This document shows, one piece after another, positions 4,501 to 40,610 of a stretch of 64,000 nucleotides of DNA; positions within the stretch are counted from its first letter, which is position 1, and the number at the start of each line of letters is the position of its first letter. The position numbers were made by a program, and so were the translations under genes. Under the pieces are notes generated by a model, which was not told where the DNA came from, made no database searches, and was given only the letters and a program-made list of their open reading frames with translations. The DNA is taken from NCBI RefSeq assembly GCF_000213655.1, contig NC_015554.1, positions 2,666,001 to 2,730,000 on the forward strand, written 5' to 3'. Origin of the DNA: Alteromonas naphthalenivorans. Lineage in GTDB: Bacteria; Pseudomonadota; Gammaproteobacteria; Enterobacterales; Alteromonadaceae.

Positions 4501-4561
4501 AATTATAGTGAATATAGTCGTCTATACTGTGTTCACCACAAATACGGATCGAAAAATTCTT

Positions 4562-5635
4562 ATGCCCATTTCGCGAATTCGTCACCTTGTTGCGTTTACT
4601 GCCTTGTCTGTTCTTACCCTTGCTGGCTGTACATCAGAGGATGACATACAAAATAAAACGGTAGCCCCCCGCTATGTGAAACTTGCCGAGGTGAGCACGG
4701 TTCCTGCATTTGATGAATTTACCTTTCCGGCAGTGGTTTCTGCAGTGAAAACGGTAGATCTTAGTTTTGAAGTGTCAGGTCGGTTAGTACAAACCGATTT
4801 AACCACTGGTAATGACATTGAAGAAGGAAAGCTGTTAGCTACGATTGACCGACAGCCTTTCGAGCGCCGTGTTGATGAACAACGTACTCGCTTGGAACAG
4901 TCTAAACGCGAATTAGATCGTATTGAAAAAATGTATGCGCAGAAACTGGTTGCGCAGAGTACTCTTGATACGGCAAAGACCACCTACGAATTAGCTGAAA
5001 TAGAACTAAAAACGGCAAAGCAGGATTTAAGTTACACCCAATTATATGCCCCTTTCGATGCCAAGGTGTCTCAGCGTCTTGTTGAAAATAATAGCTTTGT
5101 AGCCGCAGGAACGCCTATTGCTCGGTTACAAGATGTCTCTAAAATTTACTTCAATATTAACGTGCCTGAAAGGCTACTCACCGCGAACCTTAATCGTGGA
5201 ATAGAGCAAGCTAGTGCATCGTTAACGACAGAAGAAACACAGTGGTATCCAGTTAATTATGTAGAGCACAACACTCAGCCCGACCCTGTCTCGCAAACTT
5301 ATGAAGTCGTTTTTGCTATGGAGCCACGTGCAGATTTACCTCTTACGCCAGGCGCTCGCGCGGTTGTGAAAGTGAGCTTACAAGGTTCACCATTTCCTGA
5401 CGGTGTCGTTGTTCCAGTGCAATCGTTAGTGGGTGACAAAGCCTCAGGCTTTGGGGTTTGGGTATATAACGAAAGCAGCAAATTAGTGAACAAAGTTAGC
5501 GTTACTGTTGAACACATTCACGAAGATTTCGCAGTACTAAGTGGTTCATTAGCGCTGGGTGAAAAGGTGGTTGCAGCAGGCGCAACTAAAATGCGAGCAG
5601 ACATGAAGGTGCTTCCTTACGAGGGAGAAAAGTAA
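4562..5635 (+). CDS. RND efflux periplasmic adaptor lipoprotein (MFP family)
   Basis: 357 residues from ATG 4562. The N-terminus is a lipoprotein signal peptide ending in the lipobox LTLAGC, so the mature protein is anchored by a lipidated Cys near residue 23. Then follow the biotinyl-lipoyl half (FEVSGRLVQ), an alpha-helical hairpin (about residues 95-150, rich in E, R and K) and beta-barrel domains. A longer frame from GTG 4508 exists but would bury the signal peptide and overlaps the likely promoter, so it is rejected. The pump gene starts 3 nt after the stop. Confidence 0.9.
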   Translation: MPISRIRHLVAFTALSVLTLAGCTSEDDIQNKTVAPRYVKLAEVSTVPAFDEFTFPAVVSAVKTVDLSFEVSGRLVQTDLTTGNDIEEGKLLATIDRQPFERRVDEQRTRLEQSKRELDRIEKMYAQKLVAQSTLDTAKTTYELAEIELKTAKQDLSYTQLYAPFDAKVSQRLVENNSFVAAGTPIARLQDVSKIYFNINVPERLLTANLNRGIEQASASLTTEETQWYPVNYVEHNTQPDPVSQTYEVVFAMEPRADLPLTPGARAVVKVSLQGSPFPDGVVVPVQSLVGDKASGFGVWVYNESSKLVNKVSVTVEHIHEDFAVLSGSLALGEKVVAAGATKMRADMKVLPYEGEK

Positions 5636-31096: not shown

Positions 31097-31789
31097 ATGA
31101 CATTGTTAAATAAAATAATACTCACCACCCTTGCCGCTGGCGCTATTTTAGTGGTGGCTATTTTGCCTGCAGAATATGGCATCGATCCTACAGGTTTAGG
31201 TAGCACACTTGGCCTTGTCGAGATGGGTAAAGCCGAGATGGGTAAAGCCGAGCAATCGGTAAGTGAACATACACAACAGGAAAGCGCTGCTCGATTCAAT
31301 ACACAAGATTTAACGCTGTCATTTAATATAGGTGATTACGATCCCACCGCCGAGCGCATAAACGAGTCGGTACAAGGGCTTATTCATCTTGAAGATACGC
31401 CGTTTAAATCAGAAACTTTTGATATCGATATTGAAGACTACGGCGAAATAGAACATAAATTCATTATGCCTGCTGACAGTACATTCGTGTATAGCTGGAA
31501 AGTGCTAAACCACAAGGGTGAAGGTGTGTATTACGATTTTCATGGCCATCCCTCAAGCCAAGACGCGATGCAGTACCCTGACGGATTTGAAATGGCGTAT
31601 TCCCGGGGTGAAGGTATCAAGCAAAGTGGCGCTTTCACAACGCCTTTTGCAGGTTATCATGGCTTTTACTTTATGAATATTGAAGAGGGCCCCATTACTG
31701 TAAGGGTAACAATAAGCGGCTATTGGAAAGAACACAAAGAGATGTTTCGTGCGATAGATGGCAAAGTGATAACTAAAGTGCCTTTTTGA
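31097..31789 (+). CDS. Transmembrane anchor protein, conserved hypothetical
   Basis: 230 residues with one N-terminal membrane helix (about 5-25) followed by LPAEYGIDPTGLGSTLGL, a signature of proteins annotated 'transmembrane anchor protein'. The rest is a periplasmic beta domain with HKFIMPADSTFVYSWKV and a His-containing patch YYDFHGHPS (about residues 142-150). EMGKA is encoded twice in tandem by an exact 15-bp duplication (31220-31249). It follows the HupE gene on the same strand with 116 nt between, and the shared theme is envelope or metal function. True function unknown. Confidence 0.75.
   Translation: MTLLNKIILTTLAAGAILVVAILPAEYGIDPTGLGSTLGLVEMGKAEMGKAEQSVSEHTQQESAARFNTQDLTLSFNIGDYDPTAERINESVQGLIHLEDTPFKSETFDIDIEDYGEIEHKFIMPADSTFVYSWKVLNHKGEGVYYDFHGHPSSQDAMQYPDGFEMAYSRGEGIKQSGAFTTPFAGYHGFYFMNIEEGPITVRVTISGYWKEHKEMFRAIDGKVITKVPF
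31220..31249 (+). repeat. Exact 15-bp in-frame tandem duplication
   Basis: GAGATGGGTAAAGCC occurs twice back to back inside the anchor-protein gene, adding five residues and keeping the frame. It may vary in copy number between strains. Confidence 0.9.
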
Positions 31790-31916
31790 GATTTAGGTTC
31801 TTTTTTTACTAAAATAACTGTGCTCTTTTACTGAGGTAAACGCTGGGTGCGTCAGTTTTTACCGCATTAATACATCATCCTAAGTACTCTTCTTTGGTCA
31901 AGTTTCGGTGGTGGTT

Positions 31917-33032
31917 ATGTGGGAAAAAGACGCAACAAAAATAAATATTCACGTTATTGGTGTAGGTGGGTGTGGAGGTAACGCAATTAGCAATATGTCT
32001 TCCGCTTCAGCGCACAGCACCATTAGGTTTAGCTCGATTAATACCGATATTTCTGCGCTAAACCAGTGTCAAAACCTTTCACATAAACAATCTCAAGAAC
32101 ATTCAACAAAGCATGAAGTTGTGTTGATTGGCGAGCACACCACAAAAGGTTTCGGCGCAGGCGCCAACCCTGAAGTGGCTAAACATGCCGCCGAACATAG
32201 TATTGAGTTATTAAAAGCCCTGATCGCCGACGACACCCTCATTATAGTGATAGCAGGGCTTGGAGGAGGAACCGGCAGCGGTGCCACTTCAGTGTTGTTA
32301 GATTTAGCATCAGAAATGGGAATAGATGCCCTTTGCTTTGTTACCCTGCCCTTTAAATCTGAAGGGGATAAACGCAAAGAAATAGCCTATCACGCCCTTG
32401 AAGAAATTAAGCGCAAAGCCAACGCGACCCTGGTGCTTTCAAACGATGCACTTATCACCGCGCTTGATGCAACCGTGGGCATTATTAGCGCCTTCCGGCA
32501 TTGTGACACGCAAATGCAGCGAATTGTTGAATCCATCATTACTATGCTAACCAGCACGGGTTACATCAATGTTGATATCAACGATTTCAGCCATATTCTA
32601 TCACTTGAAGGTGATACCGCCTTAGGCGTTGGCGTGGCGCACAGTGATGAAACACTTTGTGATGCACTAACGCATGCTTTGAAGAACCCTTTAGTACAAA
32701 CCAACCATATTAAAGGCACGCAAGGTGTAATAGTTCAGCTATCTTGTCAACAAGAGCCCAGCCTTGCAATGTACGAAAGTATGCTGGCTGAGCTACAAAC
32801 CTTGATAGACAGCTCTCGAGCATTGATTATTAGTGGCGTAACTATCTCGGAAGAACTTCCCCACTTTGCTGAGGTGTTGGTTATTGCGACAGGCATTCCA
32901 CCTGATGCGCAAAGCGAACCTTCTTCTGAAAAGATAGTAGAGATGAAGCGACCAAGACTATCTCAACCCTATAATGGTAAAAGCGAGTATCTAGATACCC
33001 CGACTTTCGTGAGGCTAAAAGGAAAAGGCTAG
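31917..33032 (+). CDS. Second FtsZ-type GTPase (divergent FtsZ paralogue)
   Basis: 371 residues. The FtsZ nucleotide motifs are all recognisable: VIGVGGCGGNAISNM near the N-terminus, INTD (T2 loop), AGLGGGTGSGA (tubulin signature, about residues 112-122), PFKSEGDKR, SNDALI, and the catalytic T7 loop NVDIND (about 218-223). After a short linker of some 35 residues the protein ends EYLDTPTFVRLKGKG, closely like the FtsZ C-terminal peptide DYLDIPAFLRKQ that binds FtsA and ZipA. Spacing elsewhere is FtsZ-like but the sequence is far more divergent than a housekeeping FtsZ, and no dcw genes are near. A weak ribosome site leaves ATG 31917 or GTG 31908 possible. It is convergent with a WYL regulator. 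It may modulate division or form a separate filament. Confidence 0.85.
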   Translation: MWEKDATKINIHVIGVGGCGGNAISNMSSASAHSTIRFSSINTDISALNQCQNLSHKQSQEHSTKHEVVLIGEHTTKGFGAGANPEVAKHAAEHSIELLKALIADDTLIIVIAGLGGGTGSGATSVLLDLASEMGIDALCFVTLPFKSEGDKRKEIAYHALEEIKRKANATLVLSNDALITALDATVGIISAFRHCDTQMQRIVESIITMLTSTGYINVDINDFSHILSLEGDTALGVGVAHSDETLCDALTHALKNPLVQTNHIKGTQGVIVQLSCQQEPSLAMYESMLAELQTLIDSSRALIISGVTISEELPHFAEVLVIATGIPPDAQSEPSSEKIVEMKRPRLSQPYNGKSEYLDTPTFVRLKGKG

Positions 33033-33085
33033 AGAATAACGCTTCGCCAGCCCGAATAATCAACGCTAAAACGCGCGTTGTTATA

Positions 33086-34129
33086 TTAATTGCAGTAAGT
33101 CTGGTAGAGGCTTTCCGACAAGCCTGTAAAGTAACGTCTAAGCGATAAGGGCTCAAGAACTTCAATATTACTTCCTAGCCCTCTTAAAAATGCGCGAAGC
33201 TTACTGTCGTCGGTAACCGTTGCCGTCAATAGTGACTTTCCGGCAATCGTTGAGCTGCAGATGTTTTGATCTTCAGCCAGCTTATAGCCGTGTAATAGGA
33301 AGAAAGAATTGTCGTTGATAAGCAGTTTCAATTCCGCTTTTTCTTGCGTTGACACCAACTCAGCTCGGAGGCTTTTGTGATAGTCATTGCTTTGCTGGCA
33401 ATCACTCTTTGTCACCTCAACATTTCGAATAAAATTTATCGGTAAGGAATATCGTCTGGTATGCAAAGATCCAAAAGTACATATAAATATTAGACGACCA
33501 TTTTGCTGTATTAACCCCATTGGGTTCACTTTATCATAATGCTTCCATACTGCTTTTTTTGCGCGCTTGAAAAGCCTTTTTATATCTGCATTCACCTGTT
33601 TTTTGTAATACAAAGCGTTTTTTAAACGCTCTAACGTAACCGGGTCGATATCAGGTGGCACCAAAGGTTGTGACACTTGCACATTACTCACCGACTTTGA
33701 CCAATGCTGCAAAAGCGAGTCGTTATCATGAGCTAGTATTTGCTCGGCCTTATTGAAGTAAGGCTGTAGTTCTTTCAATGTAGTATTCGGAAGGGTTTCA
33801 CTAGATTGCTCGAGTACATTGAACGCAAGGGCGGTATTGCCATCCATCAAGCTTAAGTTTAATTTCTTGAAACAGGCATTAATATTCCAGCCAAAGGGTT
33901 TTGAGCGTTTATCCACTTCAAGGCCAAACAAGCCTATTTGCTCAAGGCTTTTTAAATCTCGCTGCACAGTACGCATATCAATATTGGCGTGACCACTGTT
34001 TTGCAAGTTATCTAAAATCTGCCGACTCGACACTTTACGAGGTGCGCGGGGTATAAATTGTAGAATGTCTAACTTTCGCTGGAATGCGTTCACAAGTATC
34101 GACCTGTTATTGGAATTGCCTATTAGCAT
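33086..34129 (-). CDS. WYL-domain type transcriptional regulator
   Basis: 347 residues from ATG 34129. The N-terminal winged HTH (about residues 8-70: RKLDILQFIPRAPRKVSSRQ, then DMRTVQRDLKSLEQIG) is of the DeoR/YafY kind. The C-terminal half resembles a WYL domain followed by a C-terminal extension, but the namesake motif is degenerate (RLIFICTFGSLHTRRYSL). WYL proteins sense ligands or nucleic acid and several regulate phage-defence genes. ATG 34159 lies within a palindrome and is less likely as start. It is convergent with the FtsZ-like gene and divergent from the ParD-like/map pair. Confidence 0.82.
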   Translation of the reverse strand: MLIGNSNNRSILVNAFQRKLDILQFIPRAPRKVSSRQILDNLQNSGHANIDMRTVQRDLKSLEQIGLFGLEVDKRSKPFGWNINACFKKLNLSLMDGNTALAFNVLEQSSETLPNTTLKELQPYFNKAEQILAHDNDSLLQHWSKSVSNVQVSQPLVPPDIDPVTLERLKNALYYKKQVNADIKRLFKRAKKAVWKHYDKVNPMGLIQQNGRLIFICTFGSLHTRRYSLPINFIRNVEVTKSDCQQSNDYHKSLRAELVSTQEKAELKLLINDNSFFLLHGYKLAEDQNICSSTIAGKSLLTATVTDDSKLRAFLRGLGSNIEVLEPLSLRRYFTGLSESLYQTYCN

Positions 34130-34133
34130 AAAT

Positions 34134-34164
34134 AACACATGCGACAAAAAGTGTCGCATGTGTT
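34134..34164. promoter_or_regulatory. 13-bp palindrome, probable regulator operator
   Basis: AACACATGCGACA at 34134-34146 and TGTCGCATGTGTT at 34152-34164 are perfect inverted copies with a 5-nt centre. It lies just upstream of the WYL-type gene start and about 100 bp before the divergent ParD-like gene, a good place for autoregulation. As RNA it would also make a strong hairpin. Confidence 0.65.
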
Positions 34165-34267
34165 TTGTTAACGTCTGCTGCTATTAAGTTCACGAATCAA
34201 GCATTAGACAAGATACATGTTTTAGTACATTATGTAGCAAAACATATATTTCTAAATTGGGTTTATT

Positions 34268-34474
34268 ATGGGAATTGTTAAGATATCTGATGCATTGCAT
34301 GAAGAGGTGCGTAAAACCAGCGCAGTGATGGAACGTTCTATTAATTCGCAAGCAGAATTTTGGATGAAAGTCGGCCGGCTAGCAGAGCAAAATCCCAAAT
34401 TATCTTATGAACAAATCATTGATTTAGAGATGCGCTCTCAAAACGTATCTTCAGTAAGGTTGGTTAGTGAATAG
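34268..34474 (+). CDS. ParD-like antitoxin family protein
   Basis: 68 residues, beginning MGIVKISDALHEEVRKTSAVMERSINSQAE, a ribbon-helix-helix-like start typical of ParD-like antitoxins. The rest is helical. Its stop overlaps the start of the methionine aminopeptidase gene by 8 bp, so the two are translationally coupled. No toxin of known type is adjacent. The ribosome site before ATG 34268 is weak. DNA binding and autoregulation are inferred from the family. Confidence 0.75.
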   Translation: MGIVKISDALHEEVRKTSAVMERSINSQAEFWMKVGRLAEQNPKLSYEQIIDLEMRSQNVSSVRLVSE

Positions 34475-35237
34475 CCTTATAAAATCAGCCAGTGAAATTG
34501 CACTAATGCGTGAATCAGGCAAATTACTGGCAAAGGTTTTCAACGAGCTAGATAGCTTTATGGCTCCTGGCATTACCACCCTTGAAATTGATAGCTTTGT
34601 AGAACGGTTTATTGTTGATTGCCTTAAAGCAAGACCCGCAAGTAAAGGGCAATATGGGTATCAATTTGTACTCAATAGTTCTGTGAATGACGTGGTTTGC
34701 CATGGTGTTCCTTCTGCAGCTAAAAAGCTTAAGAATGGTGATATCGTCAACATAGACATCACCCTAGAAAAAAATGGCTATATTGCAGATAGCAGCAAAA
34801 TGTACGCAATTGGTACAGTTTCACCTATTGCGAAAAAGTTAATTGATGTGACTTATGAAGCGATGTACAAAGGCATAGAGACCGTTAAACACGGCTCGAC
34901 AATTGGTGACATTGGTGCCGCTATTCAAGAGCATGCGCAGAAACATGGGTACAGTGTTGTTCGCGATTATTGTGGCCATGGCATTGGCAAAGAAATGCAT
35001 GAAGAGCCAGAAATAGTCCACGTGGGTAGCGCGGGAACTGGGCTTAAATTGGAAGCAGGCATGACCTTCACAATAGAGCCCATGATTAACCAAGGCACGT
35101 ATAAAACAAAGCTTAAAAAAGACGGTTGGACCGTGGTTACACGAGATAAGAAACTATCTGCTCAGTGGGAACACACGGTATTGGTAACGGCGACAGGCGC
35201 AGAAATACTAACATTAAGAGATTCTGAGCCTAGATAA
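34467..35237 (+). CDS. map: Type I methionine aminopeptidase
   Basis: 256 residues from GTG 34467. All five metal ligands of the family are visible: Asp in VNIDITL, Asp in IADSSKM, His in YCGHGIG, Glu in FTIEPM and Glu in QWEHTVLV. It removes N-terminal Met from nascent proteins. The housekeeping map usually lies by rpsB-tsf; here it sits behind a ParD-like gene, which suggests a second copy with its own regulation. TAAGG at 34455-34459 is the ribosome site. Its C-terminus is near-standard. Confidence 0.92.
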   Translation: MNSLIKSASEIALMRESGKLLAKVFNELDSFMAPGITTLEIDSFVERFIVDCLKARPASKGQYGYQFVLNSSVNDVVCHGVPSAAKKLKNGDIVNIDITLEKNGYIADSSKMYAIGTVSPIAKKLIDVTYEAMYKGIETVKHGSTIGDIGAAIQEHAQKHGYSVVRDYCGHGIGKEMHEEPEIVHVGSAGTGLKLEAGMTFTIEPMINQGTYKTKLKKDGWTVVTRDKKLSAQWEHTVLVTATGAEILTLRDSEPR

Positions 35238-40263: not shown

Positions 40264-40339
40264 TGGTGGGTCGTGCTGGATTCGAACCAGCGACCAATTG
40301 ATTAAAAGTCAACTGCTCTACCAGCTGAGCTAACGACCC
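40264..40339 (-). tRNA. tRNA-Lys(TTT), third copy of the cluster
   Basis: 76 nt on the minus strand, GGGTCGTTAGCTCAGCTGGT at the 5' end, anticodon loop CTTTTAA (TTT), T-loop GGTTCGAATCC and encoded CCA. Identical to the two copies upstream. It is last in transcription order. Confidence 0.97.
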
Positions 40340-40434
40340 ATCAAATAACACATTTACTACTCACACATTTACAAATGAAACAATGAGCATACAAGCTGTT
40401 GGTATTAGCTTGATTGTACTTCGCTTTCAAATGA

Positions 40435-40510
40435 TGGTGGGTCGTGCTGGATTCGAACCAGCGACCAATTGATTAAAAGTCAACTGCTCTACCAGCTGAG
40501 CTAACGACCC
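40435..40510 (-). tRNA. tRNA-Lys(TTT), second copy of the cluster
   Basis: 76 nt, identical to the other two copies, including the encoded CCA. It is 95 nt upstream (in transcription) of the last copy, an unusually long spacer, and 24 nt downstream of the first. Confidence 0.97.
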
Positions 40511-40534
40511 GTCATTTGGAGCCAGGAGAAGAAT

Positions 40535-40610
40535 TGGTGGGTCGTGCTGGATTCGAACCAGCGACCAATTGATTAAAAGTCAACTGCTCTACCAGCTGAG
40601 CTAACGACCC
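40535..40610 (-). tRNA. tRNA-Lys(TTT), first copy of the cluster
   Basis: 76 nt, identical to the other two copies. A promoter lies directly upstream at 40652-40679, so the three genes probably form one transcript. Confidence 0.97.

Follow-up and report, generated by a model that had tools for sequence, protein, structure and literature searches.

The described systems closest to the locus reported here are damage checkpoints, such as the one whose small division inhibitor is SulA, WYL regulators of defence systems, such as CapW, and FtsZ paralogs found beside the normal FtsZ. In Caulobacter, single-stranded DNA (ssDNA) activates DriD, which in turn switches on DidA, an inhibitor of division, independently of SOS (PMC4211646 and PMC12340889, available text); in this damage checkpoint, the small inhibitor stops division (PMC4211646, same text). 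The DriD consensus is reported as ATACGAC(X)7GTCGTAT, in a site that covers the -35 position and keeps a constant spacing to the -10 box (PMC12340889, in the part available). BrxR is described as repressing a defence island (PMC9122601, in the part available). Concerning FtsZ paralogs, the accessible sections of PMC2875224 attribute to FtsZl2 an extra C-terminal region of about 300 aa and to FtsZl1 an unrecognisable T6-H7 region and FtsZ C-terminal domain, and those of PMC13170164 report that in Agrobacterium a linker and a tail are found in the essential FtsZ only.

This work concerns the window, i.e. the whole stretch of 64,000 nucleotides of the Alteromonas naphthalenivorans genome that was analysed, in which an initial annotation had recognised a divergent FtsZ-type gene (hereafter ftsZ2). 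That annotation overlooked a convergent gene encoding a WYL regulator and an operator common to both genes, which are the bearers of most of the functional information. The features are the following:

31848 to 31866, plus strand: predicted WYL operator TGCGTCAGTTTTTACCGCA, upstream of ftsZ2
31876 to 31881, plus strand: predicted -10 box CATCCT of the ftsZ2 promoter, the operator spanning the -35 position
31917 to 33032, plus strand: ftsZ2, divergent second FtsZ of 371 aa (alternative GTG starts possible at 31908 and 31911)
32985 to 33020, plus strand: FtsA/ZipA-type C-terminal peptide EYLDTPTFVRLK of ftsZ2 (tail Pro and Arg present in 69 of the 71 tree-set members)
33086 to 34093, minus strand: WYL regulator gene (wHTH, WYL-like region, WCX), convergent with ftsZ2
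34125 to 34130, minus strand: predicted -10 box TATGCT of the WYL gene
34140 to 34158, minus strand: predicted WYL operator TGCGACACTTTTTGTCGCA, upstream of the WYL gene, with perfectly palindromic arms

We lean, with moderate confidence, towards the view that these features make up a mobile two-gene module, in which a DriD-type WYL activator would switch on FtsZ2, a protein probably inducible by ssDNA or damage and acting at the divisome. No description of the ftsZ2-WYL pair was found in the literature searched, which lay largely outside subscription papers and preprint servers. Elsewhere in the window, three tRNA-Lys genes lie in tandem (40264-40610).

The initial annotation had proposed that ftsZ2 encodes a second FtsZ, divergent in its body and without dcw genes nearby, and this was borne out. 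The genome contains two FtsZ genes, the other of which is the housekeeping one and follows ftsA; ftsZ2 is thus not the sole FtsZ of the genome. The two products share 29-31% identity, and no dcw gene was found among the neighbours of ftsZ2 in the window. The ftsZ2 product has in common with canonical, dcw-encoded FtsZ (TIGR00065) the fold, the GTP motifs, the T7 loop, the FtsZ_C domain and the C-terminal peptide, but differs from it by its TIGR00065 score (235.9, below the equivalog cut-off of 295.2, compared to 445.4 for the other FtsZ of the genome), by its genetic context, by a shorter linker, by its own regulator and by its position in a separate group. Phylogeny was based on the FtsZ-like ORFs of the loci and 31 chosen proteins (115 distinct sequences), from which a distant 565-aa protein was omitted to give a maximum-likelihood tree of 114 sequences (355 columns, LG+F+R5). 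The ftsZ2 product lies outside the canonical FtsZ clade of the genus, in a 71-member FtsZ2-type group with long branches that is split at 99.9/100 from canonical FtsZ and, by the same split, from two Rhizobium plasmid FtsZs and one Thiodictyon plasmid FtsZ. Barring long-branch attraction, a recent duplication of the ftsZ of the genus is contradicted by this placement. The omitted protein, encoded by genome G029 (L056 9455-11152), is a further FtsZ-like protein that is 24% identical to that of the window.

Rhizobial and Agrobacterium accessory FtsZs are, like FtsZ2, second, non-dcw FtsZs found beside the normal one; however, the two Rhizobium plasmid FtsZs examined are devoid of the tail and belong to a different branch. 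FtsZl1 and FtsZl2 are also FtsZ-superfamily paralogs accompanying a normal FtsZ. As these families are described in the accessible sections of PMC2875224, ftsZ2 fits neither of them: its product totals 371 aa, without an extension of about 300 aa as in FtsZl2, and possesses the FtsZ_C domain and the T7 loop, unlike FtsZl1.

The FtsZ nucleotide motifs and the T7 loop recognised in the initial annotation are intact, and the FtsA/ZipA-like tail that it had noticed is kept by all 22 Alteromonas members of the tree set. Residues are numbered here, including position 187, according to E. coli FtsZ. Residue comparison showed that all 22 Alteromonas FtsZ2 keep G20, G22 and N24 of T1, N43 and D45, the GGGTG of T4, E138, R142, N165 and F182, as well as N207, D209 and D212. 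Their substitutions are T110 to S, M104 to L, N186 to D (the usual residue in other bacteria) and D187 mostly to T, and position 73 is variable. In nearly all of the 71 FtsZ2-type members, the GTP-binding and T7-loop residues are conserved; position 187 is variable. The tail Pro and Arg are found in the Alteromonas (22/22), Colwellia-type (19/19), Pseudoalteromonas (7/7), f25 (10/10), f2/Vibrio-like (3/3) and Shewanella-type (8/9) proteins; they are absent from the lone FtsZ2-type protein of G379, which also deviates at two GTP-binding/T7 positions. A 12-residue insertion (residues 54-65; window 32076-32111) occurs in the FtsZ2 of the window and in its 99% identical relative P0001, and is missing from the relative P0002 and 17 other aligned sequences. 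The dN/dS ratios of FtsZ2 among four genomes (0.063-0.088) indicate purifying selection; values of 0.069-0.074, together with full-length copies in 13 genomes, rule out a chance ORF or a pseudogene.

The intact active site and tail suggest, as judged from the sequence, that FtsZ2 forms a filament and works at the divisome; the conserved catalytic residues and C-terminal peptide are compatible with the polymerisation and the recruitment to the divisome that the initial annotation had suggested. These same features could also be read as those of a replacement FtsZ for times of stress, which the WYL regulator would induce and whose rings would resist inhibitors of the housekeeping FtsZ (be they damage checkpoints or FtsZ inhibitors encoded by phages), thereby permitting division instead of blocking it. 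The residues for GTP binding, the T7 loop and hub binding, kept in nearly all members beyond the needs of a mere poison, and the purifying selection on FtsZ2 speak for such a protein. However, the inhibitor target is not known here and no SulA family match was found in the own genome. Moreover, the linker that joins FtsZ_C to the tail at the end of the 371 aa has a median of 29 in Alteromonas FtsZ2, about half that of canonical Alteromonas FtsZ (57.5), although it reaches 48 in Shewanella-type FtsZ2, which matches the median for canonical FtsZ from the other gammaproteobacteria examined. Overall, we regard this replacement role as unlikely.

Full-length homologues of ftsZ2 (65-100% identity) were found in 13 of the 59 Alteromonas genomes, besides three short remnants with stop codons (in G058, in G014 as a second copy, and in G018). 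In a family-wide sample (295 genomes), 20 of the 279 non-Alteromonas genomes encode a relative (44-65% identity) of P0022, which is a member of the same FtsZ2 group; the G065 copy is interrupted by an in-frame stop, and a second, broken copy is present in G325. Of the 394 genomes of an order-wide sample, at least 29 carry a ftsZ2 relative, including seven f6 g57 genomes and all 12 of the f25 g76 genomes that were listed. At the class level, only the own genome (1/369) passes a threshold of E 1e-106, a cut that would lose some of f25, the branch closest to canonical FtsZ. Named carriers include Shewanella insulae (P0026) and large Pseudoalteromonas replicons. Phage records yielded 24 matches to FtsZ2, none exceeding 34.1% identity, which disfavours a phage origin of ftsZ2.

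The large Pseudoalteromonas replicons, and the integrase gene adjoining some Alteromonas copies, would suit a TubZ/PhuZ-like filament devoted to the partitioning or positioning of a mobile element and detached from division. We consider this highly improbable: FtsZ2 displays the FtsZ fold, FtsZ_C and a conserved divisome tail, phage records contain only the few distant matches mentioned above, and the copies whose surroundings were retrieved lie on chromosome-sized or unassigned contigs and not on known elements.

The ORF of the WYL gene opens at an ATG (34159) inside the operator, and its homologues begin at the GTG at 34093 according to start alignment. The WCX region of the protein scores 24.8 bits (cut-off 23.9); the Pfam WYL domain gave no call on the regulator, in which the WYL tripeptide is, by eye, not conserved. 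A structural search with a weak model (pTM 0.30) ranked DriD, CapW, BrxR and PafBC first, with an rmsd of 13.7 for the best match, and at the sequence level the protein resembles DriD only marginally (E 0.16-0.54) and only in its C-terminal part. Among four genomes, the dN/dS of the WYL gene (0.041-0.062) indicates purifying selection. Five of the 13 Alteromonas WYL matches, retrieved with a query that began 22 codons ahead of the likely start, show internal stop codons; their ORFs are nonetheless open (337-346 aa).

The two genes are frequently associated, also in families other than that of Alteromonas. In Alteromonas, full-length ftsZ2 and WYL homologues (WYL of at least 62% identity) co-occur in the same 13 of the 59 genomes, in several unrelated neighbourhoods, one of which adjoins a phage-type integrase gene; in G018, a 52-residue WYL remnant adjoins the ftsZ2 remnant, and four other genomes or places show WYL relatives of just 25-33% identity. 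A WYL gene lies within 3 kb of ftsZ2 at 39 of 53 loci, as convergent, tail-to-tail genes (n = 21), as WYL-ftsZ2 operons (n = 17) or in another arrangement (n = 1); these loci were picked by ftsZ2 and not by WYL, and are related, so that the counts are not independent events. The wide surroundings retrieved for the genome-search hits exclude G156, the far side of G379 and seven of the 12 f25 genomes. Distances between partners correlate (Mantel r 0.73 for the 36 pairs kept after short or odd pairs were dropped, 0/999 permutations; r 0.88 for the 14 pairs of Alteromonas only, 0/999 permutations). Two further loci (L155 and L158) carry a WYL gene preceded by the operator and a listed ftsZ2, of which no frame passed the ORF filter. 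In L006, ftsZ2 and the WYL gene are separated by a cold-shock-domain gene (4523-5452), and the contig also carries an integrase gene and one encoding a TraI_2/HD protein. In L151 and L152 (Vibrio-like and Shewanella-like), a similar ankyrin-like gene (by eye) and a gene of 193-198 aa lie upstream of ftsZ2.

Since 13 of the 53 loci have neither operator nor adjacent WYL gene, the pairing is not obligatory. Twelve of these 13 belong to genomes without a WYL regulator (G134, G283, G257, G095, G335, G189, G305, G316, G105, G384, G461 and G431, G189 having just one 25% WYL match), and the remaining one is the second, broken ftsZ2 of G325, a genome in which the other ftsZ2 adjoins the WYL gene. Among the 14 loci without a nearby WYL gene, the only operator-bearing one is L088 (G221), whose contig encodes, about 14 kb away, the cognate WYL protein, which shares 90% identity with the one of L091. 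In G156, no WYL gene was found, nor any operator in the 4 kb around ftsZ2. At the loci of one related genus, f1 g38 (L089, L093-L096, L098-L100 and L102), both WYL gene and operator are missing, and ftsZ2 is near biotin-synthesis genes (by eye) and adjoins a gene for a HicB-like antitoxin (PF15919 in L098, the locus tested); this suggests a different control of ftsZ2, perhaps a derived one.

Alignment of upstream regions revealed a common inverted repeat, TGCGNCA-N5-TGNCGCA, containing CGAC-N7-GTCG, ahead of both WYL and ftsZ2. In the window, CGAC-N7-GTCG is exact before the WYL gene and relaxed (TGCGTCA..TACCGCA) before ftsZ2. The own genome contains three matches to TGCGNCANNNTTTNNCGCA, two at the module and a single further relaxed one at 780930. 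A survey with a tolerant consensus built from these same loci (one mismatch at most) found the operator at ftsZ2 in 20 and at WYL in 20 of the 21 convergent loci (in L006, one of the misses, the contig ends at the operator place). Each of the 17 operons has at least one operator (11 have it ahead of ftsZ2 and 10 ahead of WYL), compared to one of the 14 loci without a nearby WYL gene and four of 525 other genes once 14 overlapping regions had been removed; the single locus of another arrangement has it at neither gene, with two mismatches each. Beyond the operator, A at +11 and T at +15 are found in 61 of 61 sites, +10 being T in 47 and C in 14; since this predicted -10 box stands at a fixed spacing, the -35 position falls in the middle of the operator. 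Both the -10 box and the DriD consensus are independent of the consensus used for the operator search. An exact-pattern scan of 55 genomes, which also loses true sites such as the ftsZ2 site of the window, detected few sites away from the module; most of these are G/C variants, and some lie in the module-less G003, G004 and G011. In G054, similar palindromes (TGCGTCA..TGACGCA; G054:C5:58868 and 60010) flank a second WYL gene whose product is 27% identical, suggesting an operator type common to a wider set of WYL regulators. No SOS-type CTG-N10-CAG was found in 31400-34600, which contradicts SOS control of the module.

The module thus resembles DriD-DidA by its WYL/WCX activator (from the structural match of a weak model), by CGAC-N7-GTCG over the -35, by the fixed distance from operator to -10 and by a target acting on cell division. 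It differs in that this target is an FtsZ paralog, whereas DidA is a small FtsN inhibitor, and in that the regulator is joined to its target in a single mobile pair, whose ssDNA response is assumed by analogy.

This DriD-like arrangement bears on another interpretation, in which the pair would be a phage-defence module, the WYL protein sensing infection and FtsZ2 halting division or interfering with the phage in an abortive manner. BrxR and CapW are structural matches of the WYL protein and defence genes lie near some copies, but the predicted targets here are ftsZ2 and the WYL gene. Some copies are near DISARM DrmA/DrmB (L046), type I methyltransferase (L101) or SspE/DUF262-like (L111) genes, annotated McrC and reverse transcriptase genes adjoin Pseudoalteromonas copies, and the distribution is patchy and mobile. 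However, of ten hand-picked neighbours, six match defence families and four, including the annotated McrC, do not; the Pfam-tested neighbours in the window are not defence genes, and the operator resembles that of DriD, an activator of damage genes. A phage-response role is possible given the defence genes near some copies, but we doubt that the pair is a defence module.

Under the preferred reading of a damage-inducible module, ftsZ2 is probably induced by ssDNA or damage, by analogy with the ssDNA activation of DriD and from the top matches of the WYL model. ssDNA, arising when DNA is damaged, when forks stall or when a phage infects the cell, would activate the WYL protein, which, as for DriD and PafBC, would occupy the operator over the -35 and recruit RNA polymerase, thereby inducing FtsZ2 and its own gene. 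FtsZ2 would then polymerise with GTP, its tail would compete for the FtsA/ZipA hub, and it would co-assemble with or displace the housekeeping Z ring, so that division would be paused or remodelled until the DNA signal ends. In this reading FtsZ2 would fill the role of SulA or DidA, but with a filament-forming FtsZ as effector; the failure to find any SulA family match in the own genome speaks for it. Its sequence does not decide between blocking, replacing and remodelling the Z ring.

More tentatively, this may represent an SOS-independent pathway widespread in marine Gammaproteobacteria, by which an ssDNA-sensing WYL protein induces a dedicated, GTP-hydrolysing FtsZ2, so that the Z ring is either taken over or blocked by it. 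The known checkpoints named here use small inhibitors of FtsZ or of the late divisome, whereas the effector predicted here is a second FtsZ with an activator of DNA-stress type of its own. If true, a filament of the tubulin family would itself be the effector of a division checkpoint, the two genes would have spread together as a module, and WYL signalling would be tied directly to the Z ring. FtsZ2 would also offer a natural orthogonal or interfering FtsZ to study ring gating. Such a pathway, if real, would account for the second FtsZ kept by some marine Gammaproteobacteria.
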